DNA of 42,312 bases from Verrucomicrobiaceae bacterium. GTDB lineage: Bacteria > Verrucomicrobiota > Verrucomicrobiia > Verrucomicrobiales > Akkermansiaceae. Positions 2,178 to 32,927 of this stretch are shown here, one piece after another (the stretch's first letter is position 1; each line of letters begins with the position of its first letter). Under the pieces are notes generated by a model. That model did not search any database. It saw only the letters and a program-made list of their open reading frames with translations, and was not told the DNA's origin. The DNA lies in the NCBI GenBank assembly GCA_027487435.1, contig JAIYDP010000425.1, positions 1-42,312 of the forward strand, written 5' to 3'. The position numbers and the translations under genes are program-made.

Positions 2178-2430
2178 TAGGATCGTTTCGTTATGAGTTA
2201 GCAGAATTGCTACAAAGAACATATTCGCGCAACGACGATAATTCCATGGGGTGAAAACCTACTTTTCTGTGTGCCGAGCAGAATTATGGACAGCTCGTTG
2301 CGTCGATTTGTGATAAAAATCGTTGTCTTAGATCATGAAATTGTTAAGTTTCCGTCGAAATGTTGTTTTTACGCCTAGCTTTCAAAACATCATCCTTCGT
2401 CAAAAAAACCTACTAAACCAAAAAATCCTC

Positions 2431-5400
2431 ATGAAATCGCGCTTCAATTCCTTACTGTTTAACGCCATCTCAGGCTTTGCCTTGGTCTTTGGTGCATCAC
2501 ATTCATTCGGTGCAACGGAAACCTTCAACACCGTAGGCACGTTCAATTGGGTCTGCCCAGGCGGCGTGACCTCAATCCAAGTTGAATGCTGGGGAGGCGG
2601 CGGCGCGGGCGGCGCGGCTACCAAAGTGACGAACACTGGCACCAACACTTCTCAAAACGGCGGCGGCGGCGGGGGCGGAGCTTATGCAAGAAGAGTTGTA
2701 GTTCCCGTAACACCTGGTTCATCTTACACCATAACGATTCCGGCGGCAGCAGTGAGTGTTGTAGCTACGGACTTGACGAGCAATACTCGGGGTCAAACTG
2801 GGGGGACTGTGACGTTTGTTGGTAACTCAGGTGTAACGGTTACCGCTGTCGGCGGGCAAGGTGGTGTGAGTATCTTGAGAGATTCAAATGTGACGGCGGG
2901 CGGAGCGGCTGGCGCAGGGGGCGCGGTTGCTGCGAGTTCGGGTGATGTAGTCTTCGCTGGCGGAGCGGGTTCTGCGGGCAACACAGGTGCTACAAACGTA
3001 AGTGGATCTGGTGGCGGCGGCGCAGGTAATGCTGGTGCAGGTGGTGCGGGATTTACTTCCACCGCAAGTCCCTACGTTGGTGCGGGTCTGGGAGGAACCA
3101 TAGGAGGCGGTGCAGGTGGTGTTGGCCGCACGGGTAACCCGGCGACCTCTGGAAACACAAACAAAGGGGTAGGCACCCCCGGAGCGTCCCCAGGCGGTGG
3201 CGGCGGCGGGGCCAAAAATCAATCAAATACTTCTTTTCTCGGCGGCGCCGGTGGATTGGGGCAGATCGTCCTTACTTACCCCGATCCTCCCGCCAACTTT
3301 AAAGCTAACAATTCAGACAATCTCAACATCTCCTCAAGTTGGACTGCGTTCCTGCCGACAGCAGGAAATATTGTAGAGTGGAACAATATTGTTACGGCGG
3401 CGAACACCACTTCGCTCGGTGCTAATTTATCTTTCTCTGGTATAAAAATTTCCGATCCCGGCGGACCTGTGACCATCAACGCGGGTAACACTCTGACCTT
3501 GGGCTCCGCAGCTATTGACTTGGACCTGAGTGCTGCAACACAAGATCTGACTGTAAATTCTGATCTCGCGATGAGTGCCACCAATGTCTGGGACGTGGCT
3601 GCATCGCGCACTCTCACTTTTGGTGGGGTAATTAGCGGTTCTCAACCCGTGACTAAGCAAGGGCTTGGAACTGCGATTTTAACTACAGCAAACACTTACA
3701 CTGGAACAACCTCAGTCAACGCGGGAACATTGGTAATCAATGGCTCCAGCACAGGTTCGGGCGCAGGCACCACCAATCGATTAGTGATCGGCTCCGGTGC
3801 TGGCACGAATGGTGCGGTCACTGTCGGCAGTGGAGCTGGCTCCATGAGCTTTGGTGGCGATGGCTATACAAATGCCGTGCAGGTGGGCGTTACTGGTGGC
3901 ACAGGAGCGCTGACGATCAACGGTGGAACGGTGAATCTTGCCGGCACTACTGGCACTGCCGCTGCCTCCCTCAATATTGGCGTCCAAGTACCGGTTGCAG
4001 GCTCATCACCTGGAACTGGCTCTGTAACAGTAAATAACGGGACGCTCAACGTTGGACAGCGTATCATTATGGGAGCAAACAATATCGCTTCCAGTGGCAC
4101 CCTGACAATCTCTGGTGGTGCTGTAAATGTAGGTTATAACGGTACACTAGGCTACACGGGCCAAAATCCAGGAGTCGTGTTTTTTGGTAGTGGCACCGGG
4201 ACGCTCAATCTGGATGGTGGCGCACTTTCTCTTTTGGGCTTTAAAAGCCATGGAAGCGGCACGGCGGGAATCAACTTCAACGGCGGAACACTCGTCGCTT
4301 TGGGGAGTCCTGCTCATTTCTTGGGCAATAACGGTTCTGGTGACTCCGCCCCTTCTGGCACTGGAATGTATAGCACGGTTGTGAAAAACGGTGGGGCGAA
4401 GATTGACACAAATGGTTTCAATATTTCGATTCCTACTGCCTTGGTGTTTGACCCATTATCGCCTGGTGGTGGCTTGACGAAAAGTGGCTCGGGCACACTT
4501 ACGCTCAGCGGAGCCAGCACTTATACTGGCGCGACTTTGGTTTCTGATGGCTCGTTAGTTGTCAACGGTTCGCTTGCGAGCAGTGCGATCTCCATCGCCT
4601 CGGGTGCGACCCTTGGCGGCGGCGGATCACTCGGTGGCACCGTCACTGTGGACGCCGGCAGCGCCCAAATCACGGCTGGTAATGGCATGTCGGGCACCCT
4701 TACCACGCAGAATCTGACTTTTAGCGGAGCTGGCATCATCAATGTTGGCGAACTAGGCAGCTATTCGAGCAATCCTGCCATCGATACGCTCGGCGCACTC
4801 ACCCTGAATGGCGGTGCGGGAGCGGTCACCCTCAATCTCAGCACCTCGCCCGTAGCGAGTGGCACCTACCGCTTGGTGAGGGCATCCAGCGGCATTGCAG
4901 ATGCCAGTGGTTTCGCGCTTGGCACTGCACCTACGGTAGTCGGTCGCCAAGCTGCTGGCACATTGCAATACGACAGTGGAACCAAAACGGTGACCTACAC
5001 CACTGGCGGCACCTACCTGAAGTGGAGCGGTGCTCAGAGCACCGAATGGAGCACCAACCTCATTTCGCCTGCGAAGAACTGGCAACTCGCCAATGGCGGT
5101 GGCGGAGCCGATTTCATCGCGGCTGACGAAGTTCTCTTTGATGACTCCGCCACAGGGAAAATTGTGGACATCAGCAACGGCGATGTGTTTCCGTCCATCG
5201 TATCCTTTGCGAATAGTGTTGGCAACGACTACGCCCTGCAAGGCATCAATGGAATATCAGGAACGGCTGTTTTGCTCAAAACCGGTAGCGGTAAACTCTC
5301 GGTCTCCGGCACGAACAGCTACACCGGCGGCACTACGATTTCCAGCGGCATCCTCGCCTTCGCGAACGGAGCCCTGGGTACGAGTGGTCCTATCACCGTA

Positions 5401-8400
5401 AATGGTGGCACGCTGGAGTGGGATGCTTCGAATTCACAGGACATTTCCTCACGACTCACCCTTGCCAATTCCACGACTGCGACTCTCGACACGAATGGCA
5501 ACGACGTGACCCTCGCCAGCGCCTTTGGTGGTGGCACTTCCAGCGGGCTGACCAAAAGCGGCAATGGCATTCTGACGCTCTCCGCGGCAAACACCTACAC
5601 CGGCATTACCAACATCAACGGCGGAACGCTCAAAATCGGCAATGCTACTTCGCTGGGGACCCAGACTGGAGCGACGGACAGGACGATCGTCGCTTCGGGA
5701 GCAACGCTTGATCTTGGCGGTGTGGGGTTGGGTGTGAATAATGAGTTCGTGACAGTTTCTGGTTCCGGCGTGGGAGGAAATGGGGCGATCACCAGTTCTA
5801 GCCCGATTGTCACCCCGTTTATCGGCGTTCGCTTTCTGACTTTGGCGGGAGACACGACCCTTGGCTTCACCAATCGCTGGGATGTTGGCAACAATACCAC
5901 GGGCGGCACGCTCACCGGTGGCGGCTTTACCCTGAATCTCGTGGGTTCCGGTTCTGGTTCGGTCAGTTTGAATGGCTTGGGCGAAACAGACTTGGGTGAC
6001 ATCAACATCAACCTCGGCAGCGCAGCAACCGCGATCGCTTATCTCCAAGGAAACACGACACTGGGACAGCCGGGCAAAACGGTGACCATCGCGGGTGGTT
6101 CGGCGCTCGAAGTGTTCACAAGTGGCACTCGTACGAGCTACGACAAGAAATTCGACCTCGATAACGGAACCATCAGAATCACCAAGGCCGGTGCTATGAG
6201 CCTGCCTGGGACCATCAAGCTCACAGGAGCAGGAACCATTAGCGCCAATGCGACGACTGTCGCGATCACGTCAAGCAATGAGATCTCTGGCGATGGTAAT
6301 CTCACCAAGGCAGGCGCGGGCATACTCGCACTGACTGGCACAAACGTATTCACCGGGAACGCCACCGTGAGCGCGGGCGGACTCGTCGTCGGAGCTAACG
6401 ATGCACTGGGCACCACGGCAGGAACCACCACGATGGCCGCCGGCACCGCACTCGGCTTCACGGGTGGTATCAGCTACTCAACGGCGGAAACCATTGTCGG
6501 ATCTGGAGCTGGAAACGGCGCTGCGCTCGGGGTTTTCGCGGTATCTCAGCGCGGCTTTGTGCAAAGCGTCAGCGGCAACAATACCTTCGCCGGACCGATC
6601 CAAATCAATGCCACTGGCACATCCCGGATCGGTTCGCAGGATGGCGCTTCACTCACGCTCAGCGGCCCGATCACGATGTCTGGTGCTACCGGCGTGACAG
6701 TGCTTTTCCGCGTTGGCAACACGGATGGGGACTTCGTCACCCTTACCAACAGCGGCAATTCTTGGGACACTCAAAGCCACATTTTCTCTAACAATGCTGC
6801 CGCAGGAGCGGGTGTCAGGTTGGGCGTGGTCAACGCACTGCCGACCGCCGCACCGCTCGTCGGCTTTGGGGGTGCTGGAATCGGAACCACGCTGGATCTC
6901 GCGAGCTTCAGCCAAGAGGTCGCTGGATTATCCAATACTGGCGCCAACTCGAACCTTCGCATCACCAATAGCATTGCCGCTTCTAACTCGGTCTTGACGC
7001 TCACTAATGCTGCGAACTTGAACTCTGGAGCGAACGTGGTGATTGCCGACGGCGCGGGCGTGGTAAGCCTTGTCAAGGCTGGCACTTTTAGCCAGACACT
7101 TGCAGCTGCAAACTCATTCAGCGGCGATATCATCGTCAATAATGGCACATTGATTGGTGCTGGCGCTACCAATAGCCCAGGCATTAGCGTCTTCGGCAGT
7201 CGATTGAATACACGCACCATCACCGTCAACTCGGGAGGTACATTGCAGTTCAACTCTGGGAATATTCTCGGCGCGAACCATGTTTCCACTGATAGCCCCA
7301 CCTTAGTCATCAATAGTGGAGGGATCGTGACGAATGGAGGTGCTGCCACGAACAACGCGCTTAATAATGTCCAGCTCAATGACGGCACCCTGACTTCCAC
7401 AACTGGTCATACTGGGTCTTCTGCACCGAACTTGCCCGTCTATGGAGCCTGGAACCTCAACGGTTCGGTCATCTCTACCGGTACTTCTACGATCTCAACC
7501 ACGGATCCAACCAAGGGCTGGATCATGTTGAAAGTCGTCGGCGACAAAACCACGGACTTCAGCGTCACGAGTGGCACACTGACGGTTTCGGCCCCTGTGG
7601 TTGACAATCCAACCGACAATAACATTGGCTCCCTCAACAAGTCTGGCGCAGGTGCGATGGTGCTTTCCGCAGCCAACACCTACACTGGTAACACGACTGT
7701 TAGCGCGGGGACTTTTGAACTTGCTGATAACGCACAGCTCAAGTTCGTCCTTGGCTCTACCTCTGGCGTAGCCAATAGCATAAGCGGTGCTGGATCAGTT
7801 ACCCTGAATGGCGATTTTGTTATCGATACCTCCGCAGCAGATGGGCTCACGTCTGGGTCTTGGGCTTTGGAAAATGTCGCGGCTCTCACCGGGGCTTACG
7901 GATCTTCCTTTACTGTCGTTGGCTTCACCGATGCTGGTGCGAATAAGTGGACCAAAGTCAATGGAACTAAGACATACACCTTCGATGAAACAACGGGCAT
8001 CCTCACTCTGGCCTCTCCAGCAGGTTATTCTTCATGGGCTAGCACCAACGCGATTGGTAGTACTCCCGGTCAGGACAAAGATGGTGATGGAGTGAGCAAC
8101 GCCATTGAATACGTTCTTGGTGGCAATGTCAGTAGCAATGACCTAAGCAAGTTGCCACAAAGCAGCATAACAGGCTCGAATCTCGTGTTTACCTTCCAAC
8201 GCAATGTGGACAGCATCGATGGCTCGACCTTGTTGAGAATCCAAGTTGGCACTACGCTTAGCGAATGGTCTGCTGTCTATAACGTCGGAGCGAATACTGC
8301 TGGCTCTAGCGCAGGCGTTACCGTCATCGAAGATAGCTCGCTTGGTTTCGATACGATAACATTAACCGTGCCAATGGGATCCGATCAGAAGAAATTCGCT

Positions 8401-8427
8401 CGCCTCAACGTGGAAGTAACTCCATAA
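2431..8427 (+). CDS. Giant secreted autotransporter-associated beta-strand repeat (PATR) protein
   Basis: The frame is open from 2335, but the ATG at 2431 begins a clean signal peptide (MKSRFNSLLFN...SHSFGA), giving 1998 residues. After the signal comes a glycine-rich N-terminal domain of about 270 residues that opens with VGTFNWVCPGGVTSIQVECW. Then come many beta-helix repeats of the PATR type (PF12951), for example LTTANTYTGTTSVNAGTLVI, LTLSGASTYTGATLV, LTLSAANTYTGITNINGGTL and LSAANTYTGNTTVSAGTF. Near the C-terminus is DKDGDGVSNAIEYVLGG, a calcium-loop-like motif common in verrucomicrobial surface proteins, and then a short beta domain ending FARLNVEVTP. I see no outer-membrane barrel and no PEP-CTERM anchor, so this is not a classical type V autotransporter. 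A strong terminator follows. It is probably an adhesin or extracellular-matrix protein. Confidence 0.9.
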   Translation: MKSRFNSLLFNAISGFALVFGASHSFGATETFNTVGTFNWVCPGGVTSIQVECWGGGGAGGAATKVTNTGTNTSQNGGGGGGGAYARRVVVPVTPGSSYTITIPAAAVSVVATDLTSNTRGQTGGTVTFVGNSGVTVTAVGGQGGVSILRDSNVTAGGAAGAGGAVAASSGDVVFAGGAGSAGNTGATNVSGSGGGGAGNAGAGGAGFTSTASPYVGAGLGGTIGGGAGGVGRTGNPATSGNTNKGVGTPGASPGGGGGGAKNQSNTSFLGGAGGLGQIVLTYPDPPANFKANNSDNLNISSSWTAFLPTAGNIVEWNNIVTAANTTSLGANLSFSGIKISDPGGPVTINAGNTLTLGSAAIDLDLSAATQDLTVNSDLAMSATNVWDVAASRTLTFGGVISGSQPVTKQGLGTAILTTANTYTGTTSVNAGTLVINGSSTGSGAGTTNRLVIGSGAGTNGAVTVGSGAGSMSFGGDGYTNAVQVGVTGGTGALTINGGTVNLAGTTGTAAASLNIGVQVPVAGSSPGTGSVTVNNGTLNVGQRIIMGANNIASSGTLTISGGAVNVGYNGTLGYTGQNPGVVFFGSGTGTLNLDGGALSLLGFKSHGSGTAGINFNGGTLVALGSPAHFLGNNGSGDSAPSGTGMYSTVVKNGGAKIDTNGFNISIPTALVFDPLSPGGGLTKSGSGTLTLSGASTYTGATLVSDGSLVVNGSLASSAISIASGATLGGGGSLGGTVTVDAGSAQITAGNGMSGTLTTQNLTFSGAGIINVGELGSYSSNPAIDTLGALTLNGGAGAVTLNLSTSPVASGTYRLVRASSGIADASGFALGTAPTVVGRQAAGTLQYDSGTKTVTYTTGGTYLKWSGAQSTEWSTNLISPAKNWQLANGGGGADFIAADEVLFDDSATGKIVDISNGDVFPSIVSFANSVGNDYALQGINGISGTAVLLKTGSGKLSVSGTNSYTGGTTISSGILAFANGALGTSGPITVNGGTLEWDASNSQDISSRLTLANSTTATLDTNGNDVTLASAFGGGTSSGLTKSGNGILTLSAANTYTGITNINGGTLKIGNATSLGTQTGATDRTIVASGATLDLGGVGLGVNNEFVTVSGSGVGGNGAITSSSPIVTPFIGVRFLTLAGDTTLGFTNRWDVGNNTTGGTLTGGGFTLNLVGSGSGSVSLNGLGETDLGDININLGSAATAIAYLQGNTTLGQPGKTVTIAGGSALEVFTSGTRTSYDKKFDLDNGTIRITKAGAMSLPGTIKLTGAGTISANATTVAITSSNEISGDGNLTKAGAGILALTGTNVFTGNATVSAGGLVVGANDALGTTAGTTTMAAGTALGFTGGISYSTAETIVGSGAGNGAALGVFAVSQRGFVQSVSGNNTFAGPIQINATGTSRIGSQDGASLTLSGPITMSGATGVTVLFRVGNTDGDFVTLTNSGNSWDTQSHIFSNNAAAGAGVRLGVVNALPTAAPLVGFGGAGIGTTLDLASFSQEVAGLSNTGANSNLRITNSIAASNSVLTLTNAANLNSGANVVIADGAGVVSLVKAGTFSQTLAAANSFSGDIIVNNGTLIGAGATNSPGISVFGSRLNTRTITVNSGGTLQFNSGNILGANHVSTDSPTLVINSGGIVTNGGAATNNALNNVQLNDGTLTSTTGHTGSSAPNLPVYGAWNLNGSVISTGTSTISTTDPTKGWIMLKVVGDKTTDFSVTSGTLTVSAPVVDNPTDNNIGSLNKSGAGAMVLSAANTYTGNTTVSAGTFELADNAQLKFVLGSTSGVANSISGAGSVTLNGDFVIDTSAADGLTSGSWALENVAALTGAYGSSFTVVGFTDAGANKWTKVNGTKTYTFDETTGILTLASPAGYSSWASTNAIGSTPGQDKDGDGVSNAIEYVLGGNVSSNDLSKLPQSSITGSNLVFTFQRNVDSIDGSTLLRIQVGTTLSEWSAVYNVGANTAGSSAGVTVIEDSSLGFDTITLTVPMGSDQKKFARLNVEVTP

Positions 8428-27816: not shown

Positions 27817-28605
27817 TCAACGCAACGCGACAGGAGACTTTGCCATGTTCGCTTTGAGTGCAGCATCAGACTGACTATCAGCCCAAGTTTTGTAGGAAGC
27901 TTGATCGATCACCTCCATCGTTCCGACCATGTTGCCATGTCCTTCGCCGCAAAGCTGAGCACAAACCACAGATGTTTCGAGGGTTTTCGTCGGAGTGAAC
28001 CACATGGGGATATCATGCTTACCGGGAATTGCATCTTGTTGGATGCGCATCGGCACAATCGCGTAGTTGTGAATGACGTCTTTGCTGTTGATGTCGAGAA
28101 TTGCTGCAACCTCTACAGGGAGCTTGAGGATCGGGCTTGTAAAGTCATCCGCAGAGTTGGGGTCATTTTTATCGATGCCCAGTTCGTTTGTTCCGGAAAT
28201 CTGGAAGGGATCGATGCGGCCGAACTTGCCGTCTTTGCCTGGGTAGTGGTAGGTCCATCCAAATTGCCAACCAATCACTCGAACACGCACGTGCTCACCG
28301 GCAACGACCTTGTCGAACTTATCGGTGCGTTCGCGCCACAACGGAATCGCAAAGCCGAGGAGTAGCACGGCTTCGATGACGATCACCGCAATTTCAACGT
28401 GAGAAGAAATGTGATTGGTAACGCCCAAGTAACTCGCCTTGGGATTAGCGGATCGACGGTGCTTGATCAATGCAACGGTGAGGTAGATCGACCAACCAAC
28501 GAACAGCACAATCATGAACCAATGAACGACATCGATCAAGTGATCCACATCGGGACCGTGTTGGGAAAAAGGATCTGGAATACCTAAATATTTGCTTGGA
28601 GACAT
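27817..28605 (-). CDS. coxB: Cytochrome c oxidase subunit II
   Basis: The ATG at 28605 (MSPSKYLGIPDPFSQHGPDV) gives 262 residues. Upstream frame extension is rejected because it would overlap two small genes. Two membrane helices lie at about 25-48 and 70-90, followed by the cupredoxin domain with GWQFGWTY, the CuA histidine in DVIHNY (His179) and the CuA loop CAQLCGEGHGNM (Cys215, Cys219, His223, Met226). All CuA ligands are present. The residue between the cysteines that is usually Glu and binds Mg at the subunit I/II interface is Gln217 here. There is no C-terminal cytochrome c domain, so it is not caa3-type. Subunit II is the last oxidase gene of the operon, an unusual order. Confidence 0.95.
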   Translation of the reverse strand: MSPSKYLGIPDPFSQHGPDVDHLIDVVHWFMIVLFVGWSIYLTVALIKHRRSANPKASYLGVTNHISSHVEIAVIVIEAVLLLGFAIPLWRERTDKFDKVVAGEHVRVRVIGWQFGWTYHYPGKDGKFGRIDPFQISGTNELGIDKNDPNSADDFTSPILKLPVEVAAILDINSKDVIHNYAIVPMRIQQDAIPGKHDIPMWFTPTKTLETSVVCAQLCGEGHGNMVGTMEVIDQASYKTWADSQSDAALKANMAKSPVALR

Positions 28606-28639
28606 GGGTGTTACAGGAGAAAAAATGTGGTGGAAAAAA

Positions 28640-28846
28640 TCATGCGTTGTGAAATTCAGCTTCTTCTTCAAGAGCGAACCGGCGTGAGCGTGCTGCAATG
28701 CGCGCCATGAAAAAAATGACGCTAGAAGCAACGATAAGAATGACGACAAGAAGGAAAAAAATCGACCAGCCAACCGCGTCACCACCACCCAATTTGGCGT
28801 TGGTCTGACAAGTGCTGCATGCGAGTAACGGGAGTGTTAAGTTCAT
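28640..28846 (-). CDS. Small single-helix membrane protein in cox operon
   Basis: This is a 68-residue protein that starts MNLTLPLLACSTCQTNAK, with a CSTC pair, then GGGDAVGWSIFFLLVVILIV leading into one membrane helix (about 28-50) and a basic, then acidic tail (ARSRRFALEEEAEFHNA). The start overlaps the stop of the preceding 66-residue gene by 4 bases and coxB follows 34 bases later, so it is certainly in the operon. It may be an accessory oxidase subunit or an assembly factor; the CxxC could bind copper or heme, which is only a guess. Confidence 0.78.
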   Translation of the reverse strand: MNLTLPLLACSTCQTNAKLGGGDAVGWSIFFLLVVILIVASSVIFFMARIAARSRRFALEEEAEFHNA

Positions 28847-29047: not shown

Positions 29048-29380
29048 TCAATGGGGTAAGGGATAGAAAATCGGGTCAAACTTGGCAAACATGATCAAAG
29101 CGATCATCAGAGCAAAGAATACGATCGCACCAAAGAAGATCCAGTAAATGGCCTTCTTTTCGTGATTCAAGTGCATGAAAATCGCTCCGACAAGTGTCGC
29201 TTTAAACGAGGCGATGCAAAGACCTAGGATCATGTCCATGGTATCGAAGCCGTGCTTGCCGACATCAAGGGACTCGTAGCTTGCGACAGCTACGGTAACG
29301 CCCGTAAATACAAACAAGATCAGGCATACGATAATGTAAGATCGAATGGATTTTTTGATTTCTTCAGGTGAATTGGCCAT
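29048..29380 (-). CDS. coxD: Cytochrome c oxidase subunit IV (prokaryotic type)
   Basis: The protein has 110 residues with three membrane helices (about 13-33, 48-69, 77-99). The block FKATLVGAIFMHLNHEKKAIY is the typical 'K..lva.ffMHL..e' signature of prokaryotic cytochrome oxidase subunit IV (PF03626). It lies 22 bases after the subunit III stop. The family stabilises the CuB site or subunit assembly in aa3/caa3 and bo3 oxidases. Confidence 0.92.
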   Translation of the reverse strand: MANSPEEIKKSIRSYIIVCLILFVFTGVTVAVASYESLDVGKHGFDTMDMILGLCIASFKATLVGAIFMHLNHEKKAIYWIFFGAIVFFALMIALIMFAKFDPIFYPLPH

Positions 29381-29402: not shown

Positions 29403-31004
29403 TTACATCAAATAGAGAATGGGGAAAAGGAAGATCCAGACAAGGTCAACGAAGTGCCAGAACAATCCGCCGACTTCGACGCGGTTGGCAAGCCACTCGG
29501 GGTTGCTGCGATACATTTTCTTACCGCAGAAAAGGTAGTATCCAAGGACAATGGCACCGCCGATGACGTGCAATCCGTGAAGCGCAGTCATGGTGAAATA
29601 AATCGCGTAGTAGGTATTCCATGCAGGAGTGAATTTGCCGCTGAGGAAGACCATTTCGCGTGGGACAACCAAGTGGGGGAAGGTGTGCTTATCCTCACGA
29701 GCTTTGTAGTCAGGTCCCATAAACTCTTCCTTGGTGAAAATCTCTGCCTTGCCGCGGTCAACGTTGTTAGCTTTGGCAATAAAGTCTTTCCATCCGATGC
29801 GATATTTCTCCGTAAGGGTAGGTTCACGGTTTGGTTTGCCATTTTCATCAACACCGTATTCATTCAGCAAGCGGTCTGCGAGCTGTTTGTTTTGCTGCTT
29901 GTTCCATTCCCATGCGGCACGAACTTCTTCGCTATTCTTTATGATCCATGTGTTCTCGATAGCAATCACGGGATCAATGCCTTTTTTCTCTGCCTGCATC
30001 ACAACATGGCGGAAATCGACTGCGTCGAGGTTGTGCAGCTTCACAGGACTTGGTTGTAGTTTGCCCGTGATGGTTGTATCATCGCGAAGTTTCGAGGAAT
30101 CAGCGGATTCTTTGATGTCCCGATGATAAAACCACAGGTCGGTGGCTGGTGTAACGTTGAAGGTAACCGATGGAGTTTCGACTTTCAAACTTTGAGCGAT
30201 TGCGGCATCATCGATCTTGACATCGTTCGTAATTTGCCAACCTTTTTTGCCCTGATTTTCTGGCTTGTCCCATGCTGCGGCCCAAGCAGCACTTGACGCA
30301 TCCCTGCGGACTCTGCCATTGTTCGCACGAGAGTCGAGGTGATTGTCCCGAATGGCGTTGAGGAGATCAACGGTGAGAGGTTCACCAGCTTTGATCGTGC
30401 TGCCTTCGATGGGTAGATCTGCGGCAAGTGTAATGGTGGCTTTAGCAGCGGTTGCTTGGCGCATCATCTCCGCAACCCATGGCTTGTGGAAGCGAACGGT
30501 CGTAAACGAGAGTTTTTCCGCAACAACGTGGATTTGGTCAGCTTCAGCGAAAATAGGCTTATTTTCTTTATCGAGTTTACCTGTGTCGGCTTTTTTGTCG
30601 AAATCAAGGTGCCCCTCAAGGATGGTGTAATCGGTGAGGCGAATGGCTTGGTGGTGCCATTTGACATTGTATTCGATCCCCTTGAGCACCATGAAGATCA
30701 AGGCGCAGAAGATGGTGAATGCCATGCTGATTTGGAAGTTACGCCAATTTCTCAACTTAAGGGCGGCCCAGGCGAAAACCACCGTAACGGATGAGGCAAT
30801 CAGAACAAAGGTATTGATCAAGCCGGGTAGCACAGGAAGAGCACGTTCTGGCCATGGATAGTCTGCCCCCAATCGCAGATAGACATAAGAAGAGAAGAAT
30901 CCACCGAAAAGCATGACTTCCGATGCGAGGAAGAGCCAGATAGCGATTTTTGAATTGACCATGCCGGTGTCTTTACGCGGCGTGAAGATGTAAGGAATTT
31001 CCAT
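29403..31004 (-). CDS. coxC: Cytochrome c oxidase subunit III with ~340-residue insertion
   Basis: The protein has 533 residues; five-helix subunit III proteins are usually near 200. The conserved frame is split. Residues 1-117 hold three helices (KIAIWLFLASEVMLFGGFFS; LINTFVLIASSVTVVFAWA; FTIFCALIFMVLKGIEY). Residues about 456-533 hold the last two, with the signature YFTMTALHGLHVIGG and the end VGGLFWHFVDLVWIFLFPIL. Between them lie about 340 soluble residues rich in charged and Trp/Asp/Lys residues, with no stop codon, no repeats and no codon-use break that I can see. From the normal helix order this insert should face the periplasm. It is the second gene of the oxidase operon, 33 bases after coxA. 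The insert matches no family I can name. Confidence 0.92.
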   Translation of the reverse strand: MEIPYIFTPRKDTGMVNSKIAIWLFLASEVMLFGGFFSSYVYLRLGADYPWPERALPVLPGLINTFVLIASSVTVVFAWAALKLRNWRNFQISMAFTIFCALIFMVLKGIEYNVKWHHQAIRLTDYTILEGHLDFDKKADTGKLDKENKPIFAEADQIHVVAEKLSFTTVRFHKPWVAEMMRQATAAKATITLAADLPIEGSTIKAGEPLTVDLLNAIRDNHLDSRANNGRVRRDASSAAWAAAWDKPENQGKKGWQITNDVKIDDAAIAQSLKVETPSVTFNVTPATDLWFYHRDIKESADSSKLRDDTTITGKLQPSPVKLHNLDAVDFRHVVMQAEKKGIDPVIAIENTWIIKNSEEVRAAWEWNKQQNKQLADRLLNEYGVDENGKPNREPTLTEKYRIGWKDFIAKANNVDRGKAEIFTKEEFMGPDYKAREDKHTFPHLVVPREMVFLSGKFTPAWNTYYAIYFTMTALHGLHVIGGAIVLGYYLFCGKKMYRSNPEWLANRVEVGGLFWHFVDLVWIFLFPILYLM

Positions 31005-31037: not shown

Positions 31038-32927
31038 TTAGTGAGCGACTTCTTCTTTTGCAGGAGTCAGTGCAGGCATGTCTGCTGGCTTTTCCCACTG
31101 GGGAGTGAAATCCTCAGTAGCACCAGGCTGGCTGTATTCGTAGGGTCCACGATAGCTTGCCACATCGAAAGTGAAGTTGCCATGACCTGGAGGTGTAGGC
31201 GTTGCCCATTCCAGCGTAGTTGCATTCCATGGGTTGTCACTTTCCACTTTTTTGCCATTGAAGTAGCTCAAGAAAATGTTGATAATGAAGGGAATTTGGA
31301 AGAACGCCATCGTCCAAGCCGCCGTTGACATGAGAATATTGGAATCGATGTGTTGAGCTACAGTGAGGCCGAAAACGTTAGCCGAATCAGCAGCTTTGGC
31401 GAGGTAAGCATCACCGCCGTTGGCCCAGCGGCGGTGGAAACCAGCCATGCCTTGCGTTAGCATCGGGAAGAACAACAAGTTCATGCAAATCAGCGATGGC
31501 CAAAAGTGCAGATGGTTGAGAGTGTTGCTGGTGTAGCGTCCCGTGATTTTTGGATACCAATGATGGACACCTCCAAACAAACCGAAGAGGATGCCTGGAG
31601 CTACGACGTAGTGGAAGTGACCGATCACGTAGTAGGTATCATGCAAGTGTAGGTCCACGAGATTGAATGCCAAAGGAAGACCAGTAAGACCGCCGATGCC
31701 GAACATCGGGATAAACGCACAGGCCCACATCATAGGAGAAGTGAAACGAATAGAACCACCCCAGAGTGAAATCATCAGAGCTGTAAGAAGAATCACTGAA
31801 GGAATGGAAATCAGCACCGTGGTGATCTGGAACCAAGTCGAAATGGCAGGGCCCATGCCGGTAAGATACATGTGGTGAGCCCAAACGATGAAGGACAAGA
31901 AACCTAGAACGATCACCCCATAGACCATCGATTTGTAACCCCAAAGTGGACGACGGGTGTTCGCTGGAATAATTTCTGCAACGCAAGCAATCGCAGGCAA
32001 TAGAAGAACATACACTTCTGGGTGCCCCAAGAACCAGAAGAGGTGTTGGAACAAGAGAGGGCTACCACCACCGGAAAGTTCTGCAAGTCCATCAGATTTG
32101 CTGAAAAGACCTGAAGGCAAAAAGAACGAAGAATTCCAAACGCGGTCAACGAGCTGCATAATGCCAGCAGCCTCAAGAGGAGGGAAAGCAAGCAAGAGTA
32201 AGAAACCTGTTACCAACATGGCCCATACAAAGAAAGGCATGCGCATCCAGGTCATGCCGCGAGCACGCAAATTGATAATCGTTGTGATGAAATTGACCGA
32301 GCCAAGGAGCGAAGAAGTGATCAGCAAAACAAGTCCGACGAGCCACTGTGTTTGTCCCGCCAGCCACTGATTGACGATCTGCGCGTCGGCAAAGCCAGCG
32401 AGCGGTGAATAGTTGGTCCAGCCCGACTTTGCGGCACCAGATTCCATGAAAAACGAGGCGCACATCACCAGACCGCCTGCAAGGTAGATCCAGTAGGAAA
32501 GCATGTTGAGTTTCGGAAAGGCCATATCTACGGCGCCAATTTGCAAGGGCGTCACGTAGTTACCAAAAGCCCCGAAGCCAAGAGGCACAATTCCAAGGAA
32601 AACCATGATTGTGCCGTGCATCGCACCAAACATATTGTAGGTGTCGCCAATGACTTTCCCATCTTGCAACCAACGAGCTTTCCAGCTATCGGTAAACACC
32701 CAGCTCATCCAGCCGGGTAGGGGCTCGTGGGGGTAGGCGATTGACCAACGCATCACCATCATCAGGTAGAACCCAAACAACAAAAACGACATGGCGGTCA
32801 GGCCGTATTGGATGCCGATGGTCTTGTGATCTGTCGAAAAAATGTATTTTTGCCAAAAGCTTTGATGATGGTGATGATCATCGTGATGTGCTTCGGAATC
32901 GTGGTTGGTCGCTGCGTGTTCGCTCAT
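31038..32927 (-). CDS. coxA: Cytochrome c oxidase subunit I (aa3-type, no K-channel lysine)
   Basis: The ATG at 32927 gives 629 residues with a His/Asp-rich N-terminus (residues 4-21), then about 12 helices. Heme and copper ligands are complete: His104 (FGAMHGT), His302-Tyr306 (GHPEVY), His351-His352 (WAHHMY), and the pair in IGHFHYV. The Mg-site His-Asp is in LHLHDTYY. D-channel residues Asp134 (GAVDMAFPKLN), Asn141 and Glu304 are kept, so it looks A1-type. In the K-channel the usual PTGIK block is PSVIL (376-380), with Leu for the lysine, and the Ser after GHPEVY is Ala (PAIACVAEII). It is the first gene of the operon, and a CRP-like palindrome lies 148 bases upstream. Confidence 0.96.
   Translation of the reverse strand: MSEHAATNHDSEAHHDDHHHHQSFWQKYIFSTDHKTIGIQYGLTAMSFLLFGFYLMMVMRWSIAYPHEPLPGWMSWVFTDSWKARWLQDGKVIGDTYNMFGAMHGTIMVFLGIVPLGFGAFGNYVTPLQIGAVDMAFPKLNMLSYWIYLAGGLVMCASFFMESGAAKSGWTNYSPLAGFADAQIVNQWLAGQTQWLVGLVLLITSSLLGSVNFITTIINLRARGMTWMRMPFFVWAMLVTGFLLLLAFPPLEAAGIMQLVDRVWNSSFFLPSGLFSKSDGLAELSGGGSPLLFQHLFWFLGHPEVYVLLLPAIACVAEIIPANTRRPLWGYKSMVYGVIVLGFLSFIVWAHHMYLTGMGPAISTWFQITTVLISIPSVILLTALMISLWGGSIRFTSPMMWACAFIPMFGIGGLTGLPLAFNLVDLHLHDTYYVIGHFHYVVAPGILFGLFGGVHHWYPKITGRYTSNTLNHLHFWPSLICMNLLFFPMLTQGMAGFHRRWANGGDAYLAKAADSANVFGLTVAQHIDSNILMSTAAWTMAFFQIPFIINIFLSYFNGKKVESDNPWNATTLEWATPTPPGHGNFTFDVASYRGPYEYSQPGATEDFTPQWEKPADMPALTPAKEEVAH

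Follow-up and report, generated by a model that had tools for sequence, protein, structure and literature searches.

The subunit III gene (coxC) of an aa3-type cytochrome c oxidase in a Verrucomicrobiaceae bacterium encodes a real, conserved and selected domain without known relatives, inserted into a core, conserved oxidase part whose role beyond stability is debated. On balance, we regard the insert as a lineage-specific periplasmic clamp on subunit III that would tie the aa3 oxidase to alternative complex III (ACIII).

The whole stretch of DNA analysed, referred to as the window, comprises 42,312 nucleotides. Within it coxC is a single frame running from 31004 down to 29403 with zero internal stops. 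The Pfam COX3 profile (PF00510) matches the protein at 68.5 bits against a curated cut-off of 23.8, in two stretches (profile positions 77-180 and 176-255) that flank the insert, and solved relatives such as 2yev and 6adq align to the CoxC ends only (two alignments). The coxA gene lies upstream of coxC and coxD on the other side, with coxB beyond coxD (Table 1), and the corresponding COX1, COX4_pro and COX2 matches in Pfam adjoin coxC. Read from the sequence, coxB contains C-x3-C-x3-H-x2-M, which we take to be the CuA motif. Since both profile and gene context hold, coxC is classed as a subunit III variant despite its long loop. The coordinates and the subunit III identity proposed in the initial annotation were right, and the strand, which was left unstated there, is minus. 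Elsewhere in the window, positions 2335-8427 encode a repeat-rich protein of 2030 residues, rich in G, T and S.

Table 1. Oxidase genes in the window and the parts of CoxC (residues in protein numbering).
Feature	Position in window	Strand	Basis
coxC, cytochrome c oxidase subunit III, 533 aa including the periplasmic insert	29403..31004	minus	ORF, Pfam
CoxC residues 1-117, helices 1-3 of five-helix subunit III	30654..31004	minus	model helices
CoxC residues 118-461, inserted periplasmic domain, mixed beta/alpha	29622..30653	minus	confident prediction
CoxC residues 119-172, first beta element	30489..30650	minus	aligns with start of short insert, weakly (probability 25%)
CoxC residues 303-331, second strand group with invariant D308, D327, D330	30012..30098	minus	model, alignment
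CoxC residues 443-461, closing strands of the insert	29622..29678	minus	model, alignment to short insert
CoxC residues 456-533, insert end and helices 4-5	29406..29639	minus	model
coxA, subunit I; start likely MSEHAATNH	31038..32927	minus	COX1 match
coxD, subunit IV (COX4_pro)	29048..29380	minus	Pfam
coxB, subunit II, CuA motif, without CxxCH	27817..28788	minus	COX2 match and sequence

An AlphaFold2 model was built on an alignment (A1) of the window protein with 72 of 79 loci from named genomes, aligned end to end after exclusion of seven partial or broken loci. The model has helices at residues 18-46, 58-83, 87-116, 464-500 and 502-532, and the extra segment therefore spans approximately residues 118-461, between helices 3 and 4. 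In this full model the blocks of the insert are mostly above 90 pLDDT, with the first 60 residues at 52-61. Modelled alone (residues 117-461, 345 residues, alignment A2), the insert reached a pLDDT of 96.5 and a pTM of 0.86, and strands form its two ends, with a long helix (212-245), further strands (279-330) and then a helical part in addition (protein numbering). The insert presumably forms one compact body. Its invariant residues in the A1 alignment are H118, G131, H132, D308, D327 and D330. Subunit III has its N terminus inside and its C terminus outside, and the loops on the opposite side of the CoxC membrane part are, as read from the sequence, rich in K and R; together these place the insert on the periplasmic side. 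The earlier proposal that conserved helices are split by a long segment facing the periplasm is borne out on both counts: the split falls after helix 3, the insert is about 340 residues long in one frame, and the known topology agrees with the K/R-rich loops on the other side.

The insert is widespread in its lineage. A coxC match was found in 35 of 38 genomes, the source genome included. Within the source family, residues 1-533 were matched in one piece in 15 of 24 genomes and in two pieces of one frame in five, while two were cut at contig ends and two had no match; in the 13 matching genomes from other families of the order, whose frames have 456-568 residues, it was mostly the ends that matched. 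Seven congeneric assemblies carry full-length homologues at 71-76% identity, and two further congeners carry pieces of homologues where their contigs end. In a collection of named genomes 92 of 94 stretches were confirmed, and the best 80, which were kept, yielded 79 loci, 72 of these with full-length homologues; isolates with homologues include Luteolibacter marinus and Haloferula rosea. Order-wide, COX3 matched in 157 of 191 genomes, and all of those listed among the 34 genomes without it, at least 20, belong to one genus (g3). A profile of the insert only matched 131 of these 191 genomes at E <= 0.001, once per genome except for one frame matched in two pieces. Among the first 40 of these matches, 37 abut or fall inside a COX3 match and three are absent among the COX3 matches listed. 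This profile misses divergent inserts, since two genomes (G029 and G032) have long frames of 493 and 470 residues that it leaves unmatched. In a sample of the phylum it matched 16 of 288, all from the source order.

Selection on the insert was assessed in 34 pairs of relatives that are 85-98.5% identical, closer pairs being used because dS between the window and four congeners was mostly saturated. In the 24 pairs with usable dS, the ten others being dropped, omega of the insert had a median of 0.08 and a maximum of 0.24, and that of the membrane part a median of 0.02. The insert is under purifying selection; it evolves faster than the helices and is clearly constrained as protein. The initial annotation had named two ways in which the insert could prove spurious, namely occurrence in this assembly alone and a misassembly joining two genes, and neither holds. 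Considering the homologues in 35 of 38 genomes and in 72 of 79 loci, the low omega and the confidence of the insert model, it is hardly conceivable that the frame arose from two genes fused in assembly or from a chance-open, untranslated stretch. The alignment of subunit III from other Verrucomicrobiota, also proposed there, revealed conservation of the insert across the source lineage, in the same helix 3-4 loop. The source assembly (G000) measures 9.39 Mb (506 contigs, 82% completeness) versus 2.9-4.4 Mb in nine congeners, either because the genome has expanded or because the bin is mixed.

Searches for relatives of the insert were negative at the levels of family, sequence and fold. The window insert matched 0 Pfam families at E <= 1, and the 15 families matched by any of 73 insert members were each matched by just one or two of them (best E 0.0025). 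Single-sequence and profile searches against PDB sequences gave nothing significant (E >= 0.33). Foldseek with the insert-alone model found no PDB fold at E <= 0.001 (best E 0.52, probability 0.04), and the full CoxC model returned oxidase subunits at ranks 1-39 (best E 0.017). The predicted fold looks new within the Pfam and PDB libraries searched, which agrees with the failure of the initial annotation to recognise any similarity. An Sm-like fold, prompted by an L-x-D-x-x-x-I-x-G pattern and weak Lsm matches (E 2.2 and 2.5), was not borne out, with zero Lsm chains among the best 50 of 101 insert-alone Foldseek matches (E <= 10). In the open-access PMC literature we found no paper on an oxidase subunit III insertion in Verrucomicrobia or Akkermansiaceae, or on a large periplasmic insertion.

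The size of the helix 3-4 loop, measured between the Glu at the end of helix 3 and the helix 4 His in 50 hand-chosen subunits, forms a graded series. The loop has 365 residues in CoxC versus 27-28 in ordinary subunits III of the phylum; another group has loops of 37-63, families f8 and f10 have loops of 96-120, and the source lineage has loops of 267-479, the insert itself being 262-471 residues long (73 sequences). In a midpoint-rooted FastTree phylogeny of the ends, with the insert removed, the 96-120 forms make up two branches basal to the long forms, and a subunit with a loop of 27 (L132) falls outside both short-insert branches and the long forms. The short insert (75-99 residues) can be aligned to the long one at either end; in profile comparison the C-terminal segment (421-461) reached a probability of 90% over 16 columns and the N-terminal one 25%. 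We infer that the long insert arose by growth inside a short insert. Among the subunits III compared, those of f8 and f10 are the closest from outside the order; they share the loop and the matching insert ends, and lack the 200-400 middle residues of the long insert, in which its helical part and second strand group are found. A weak internal duplication inside the insert is possible, as residues 117-172 and 296-342 have similar patterns and align over 12 columns at a probability of 43%; residues 296-342 matched the short insert at just 0.6%. The initial annotation saw the insert; it covered neither the loops of intermediate size nor the cbb3-like module and its ACIII cluster, which are described below.

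Extra residues also occur at other places in subunit III. Family f9 subunits (L129, L131, L133, L134, L135 and L138) have about 70-80 extra residues at another site, before the last helix. In L132 (G095), a subunit III that belongs to a sister oxidase and has a helix 3-4 loop of normal size, about 66 extra residues, rich in D, E and H, lie in the helix 1-2 loop, which is also periplasmic. One full-length COX3 match (L112, G082:C3:10325-11092; E 1.1e-109), with nine in-frame TGA codons and from a prokaryote bin, is probably mitochondrial contamination.

In most loci the oxidase genes are linked to those of ACIII. The ACIII subunit ActD was found in 36 of the 38 genomes, and both genomes without it are also without cox3; cytochrome b of bc1, with PF13631 as the sole bc1 model, was found in three. 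In the 35 genomes with both cox3 and ActD, the two share a contig in 19 and lie, by eye, 7-10 kb apart in 18 of these. A CcoN-like gene stands upstream of coxA in 57 of the 65 loci with at least 2 kb of upstream sequence, nine loci with less than 2 kb and five without coxA being excluded from the count; judged by contig place, the eight loci without it are source-genus genomes. CcoN-like, CcoO-like and ActE/F were present in the examined stretches of 26 of 29 genomes, and the other three were without ActE, ActF, CcoN-like and CcoO-like. In four loci (L176, L177, L178 and L181) the cluster starts with actA (five CxxCH where visible), actB to actF and a small or monohaem protein, and ends with CcoN-like, CcoO-like, a monohaem cytochrome, coxA, coxC, coxD and then coxB; the family assignments derive from profile matches run on the source genome copy (L182). 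The gene after actF (L182:10837-11625) has a CxxCH cytochrome c domain in L176, L182 and L185 of the source family, and in other families (e.g. L177, L178 and L180) the gene at this place encodes a shorter protein without that domain. In L142 and L183 (G044, family f8) a short-insert cox3, coxD and coxB follow the act genes, and coxA was not found in either stretch.

It must be noted that some observations on this linkage count against a clamp. In the source genus the ACIII cluster no longer adjoins coxA, and in the source genome the act genes are on contig C61, apart from the cox genes of the window. This genome has a further COX1-family subunit I gene on contig C255, and ACIII could feed that oxidase instead. 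One genome of 82% completeness (G035) has ActD and no cox3. For eight of the ten subunits whose loop is 37-63 residues long, ActD lies within the same contig at a distance of 4-7 kb, so that ACIII linkage needs no large insert. Similarly, of the 15 g3 genomes in the phylum sample, 10 match ActD weakly and have no COX3, and ActD presence thus requires no such oxidase. The range of insert lengths is also not obviously compatible with a tight interface.

The CcoN-like gene of the cluster (L182:11671-13155 on contig C61 in the source genome, with homologues in related loci) encodes what is apparently a conserved pseudo-oxidase, as judged by alignment. Relative to 3mk7, WYGHN is replaced by WFRSS, GPHH by GFQK and GHVHAGALG by GMDVLAVYG, and the helix II His is kept; the altered histidines are presumably the CuB and haem ligands of the cbb3 oxidase. 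The HH pair is absent in 66 of 66 aligned rows (the source protein counted twice), with single histidines in L177 at one HH place and in one row at the first CuB place. None of the CcoN-like rows examined, some variants being left out, has the helix X HxH present in 3mk7. The same histidines are missing in a protein of family f8 (L180), along with the helix II His. Apart from the helix II His, the CcoN-like protein does not have the ligand histidines of a cbb3-type subunit I. In the accessible passages of two papers on verrucomicrobial methanotrophs, genes beside ACIII are termed cbb3-type oxidase (PMC8498564, PMC6688271). Such a 'cbb3 oxidase' next to ACIII may need a check of its ligands before oxygen affinity is inferred.

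Known supercomplexes of ACIII and oxidases offer a basis for comparison, as far as the available excerpts of the publications go. In Flavobacterium johnsoniae the contacts are made via subunit III, which has five helices and whose variability may suit different partners (PMC8361435), and ACIII is the sole electron source of aa3 (PMC8552683). This aa3/CtaE/CyoC-type subunit III belongs to the COX3 family and has five helices, as does CoxC; it contacts ACIII, and the excerpt of the same paper mentions no large domain for it (PMC8361435). Subunit III is also at the ACIII contact in Rhodothermus marinus (PMC5928083), and in another Verrucomicrobiota isolate ActABCDEF directly precedes the Cox genes (PMC13274419). 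In the III2IV2 supercomplex of M. smegmatis the subunit III equivalents CtaE/CtaF likewise make the partner contact (PMC8361435); there, the partner is cytochrome bcc and the extension is a loop of QcrB, not a subunit III domain. The oxidase genes of the R. marinus ACIII-caa3 system follow the ACIII genes, as they do in loci such as L176 of the insert lineage. Its subunit II includes a cytochrome c domain, whereas coxB here is without CxxCH, and its periplasmic cleft holds the additional subunit ActH instead of an oxidase insert.

Compared with other oxidases of the phylum (20 hand-chosen sequences), subunit I of the source lineage is extended in loops I-II, V-VI and XI-XII, and these loops are presumably periplasmic, by the standard 12-helix topology. 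Loops I-II and V-VI are enlarged in short-insert members too, and some long-insert members (L155 and L161) have little extra in loop XI-XII. In the 17 genomes with both housekeeping controls, distances of the insert correlate with those of the CcoN-like protein (0.97), ActB (0.96), its own membrane part (0.94) and ActF (0.92), and with the controls PurC and YihA at 0.72 and 0.47; the PurC control is patchy and was found in 26 of 38 genomes. On the background of PurC and YihA all ten respiratory proteins score 0.75-0.95 with the insert (CcoO-like 0.85, c2 0.75), and no single partner can therefore be firmly picked out by covariation. When the background was instead the mean of all other proteins, the partial correlations in the same genomes were 0.79 for CcoN-like, 0.64 for ActB, 0.62 for the membrane part, 0.38 for ActE, 0.29 for ActA, 0.24 for ActC, 0.16 for ActD, 0.10 for ActF, -0.04 for CcoO-like, -0.21 for c2, -0.39 for PurC and -0.55 for YihA. 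A run of 24 genomes without housekeeping controls, from which a motif pattern had removed G020 and G024, gave 0.47 for the membrane part, 0.45 for ActB, 0.36 for ActF, 0.33 for ActE, 0.17 for CcoN-like, -0.19 for CcoO-like and -0.29 for c2; c1, included in this run, was dropped from the other because the best matches to c1 and c2 are of equal length in many genomes. ActB stands out in both runs and CcoN-like does not, in an analysis that is exploratory, with two controls only, several tests and linked genes that share history.

The most plausible hypothesis uniting these observations is a supercomplex clamp, which is made probable by the linkage to ACIII, the scarcity of bc1 and the place of subunit III at known supercomplex contacts, and backed by the extra subunit I loops on the same face, the covariation, the purifying selection and the confident model. 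The insert would project from the very subunit that contacts ACIII in known ACIII-oxidase supercomplexes and hold aa3 against the periplasmic part of ACIII (the ActB/ActA/ActE side), perhaps with the cbb3-like module too, and electrons would then reach CuA without a freely diffusing carrier. We infer the contact, the subunit gripped and the effect on electron transfer alike, and ACIII is the likely partner of the insert-bearing oxidase. Of the roles suggested in the initial annotation, the supercomplex tether is thus the best-supported, while a built-in cytochrome c docking domain is not specifically supported. Less probably, the insert stabilises the oxidase itself as a cap, packing on the enlarged subunit I loops and subunit II with no outside partner. 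The extra residues of subunit I in the same lineage and the covariation of the subunit III membrane part with the insert fit such a cap, but loops I-II and V-VI are already large where the helix 3-4 loop is merely 96-120, and ActB and CcoN-like track the insert at least as well as the membrane part does.

That the insert docks a cytochrome c, soluble or membrane-anchored, which feeds CuA appears rather unlikely, even though it lies periplasmically in an oxidase with CuA and no fused cytochrome c in subunit II, the ACIII cluster encodes monohaem cytochromes, and CcoO-like and c2 retain high partials on the housekeeping background. That excess is removed by the all-others background in both runs, and the charge of the insert is inconsistent (net -37 to +8, median -7, 73 sequences), which speaks against an acidic cytochrome c dock. 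Nor do the inserts hold a haem c site, since 72 of the 73 have fewer than two Cys. One may also speculate that the insert binds the cell wall, another envelope protein or a metal, and has no role in electron transfer: it has no known fold, and its invariant histidines, glycine and aspartates could bind metal or hold the fold. This we consider very unlikely, as the insert covaries with respiratory subunits and no match to its profile outside subunit III was seen in the first 40 checked. Returning to the clamp, a three-part assembly can be tentatively envisaged, in which ACIII and the insert-held aa3 would be joined by a dead cbb3-like module acting as a membrane-anchored electron bridge. This module would consist of the CcoN-like protein, without the CuB HH pair and helix X HxH, the CcoO-like protein and monohaem cytochromes.

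Since no solved structure matched, a single structure could yield a new fold and at the same time test the physical coupling of ACIII to the oxidase. A domain of 260-470 residues in one order, smaller in sister families, offers a natural experiment in the evolution of supercomplex contacts.
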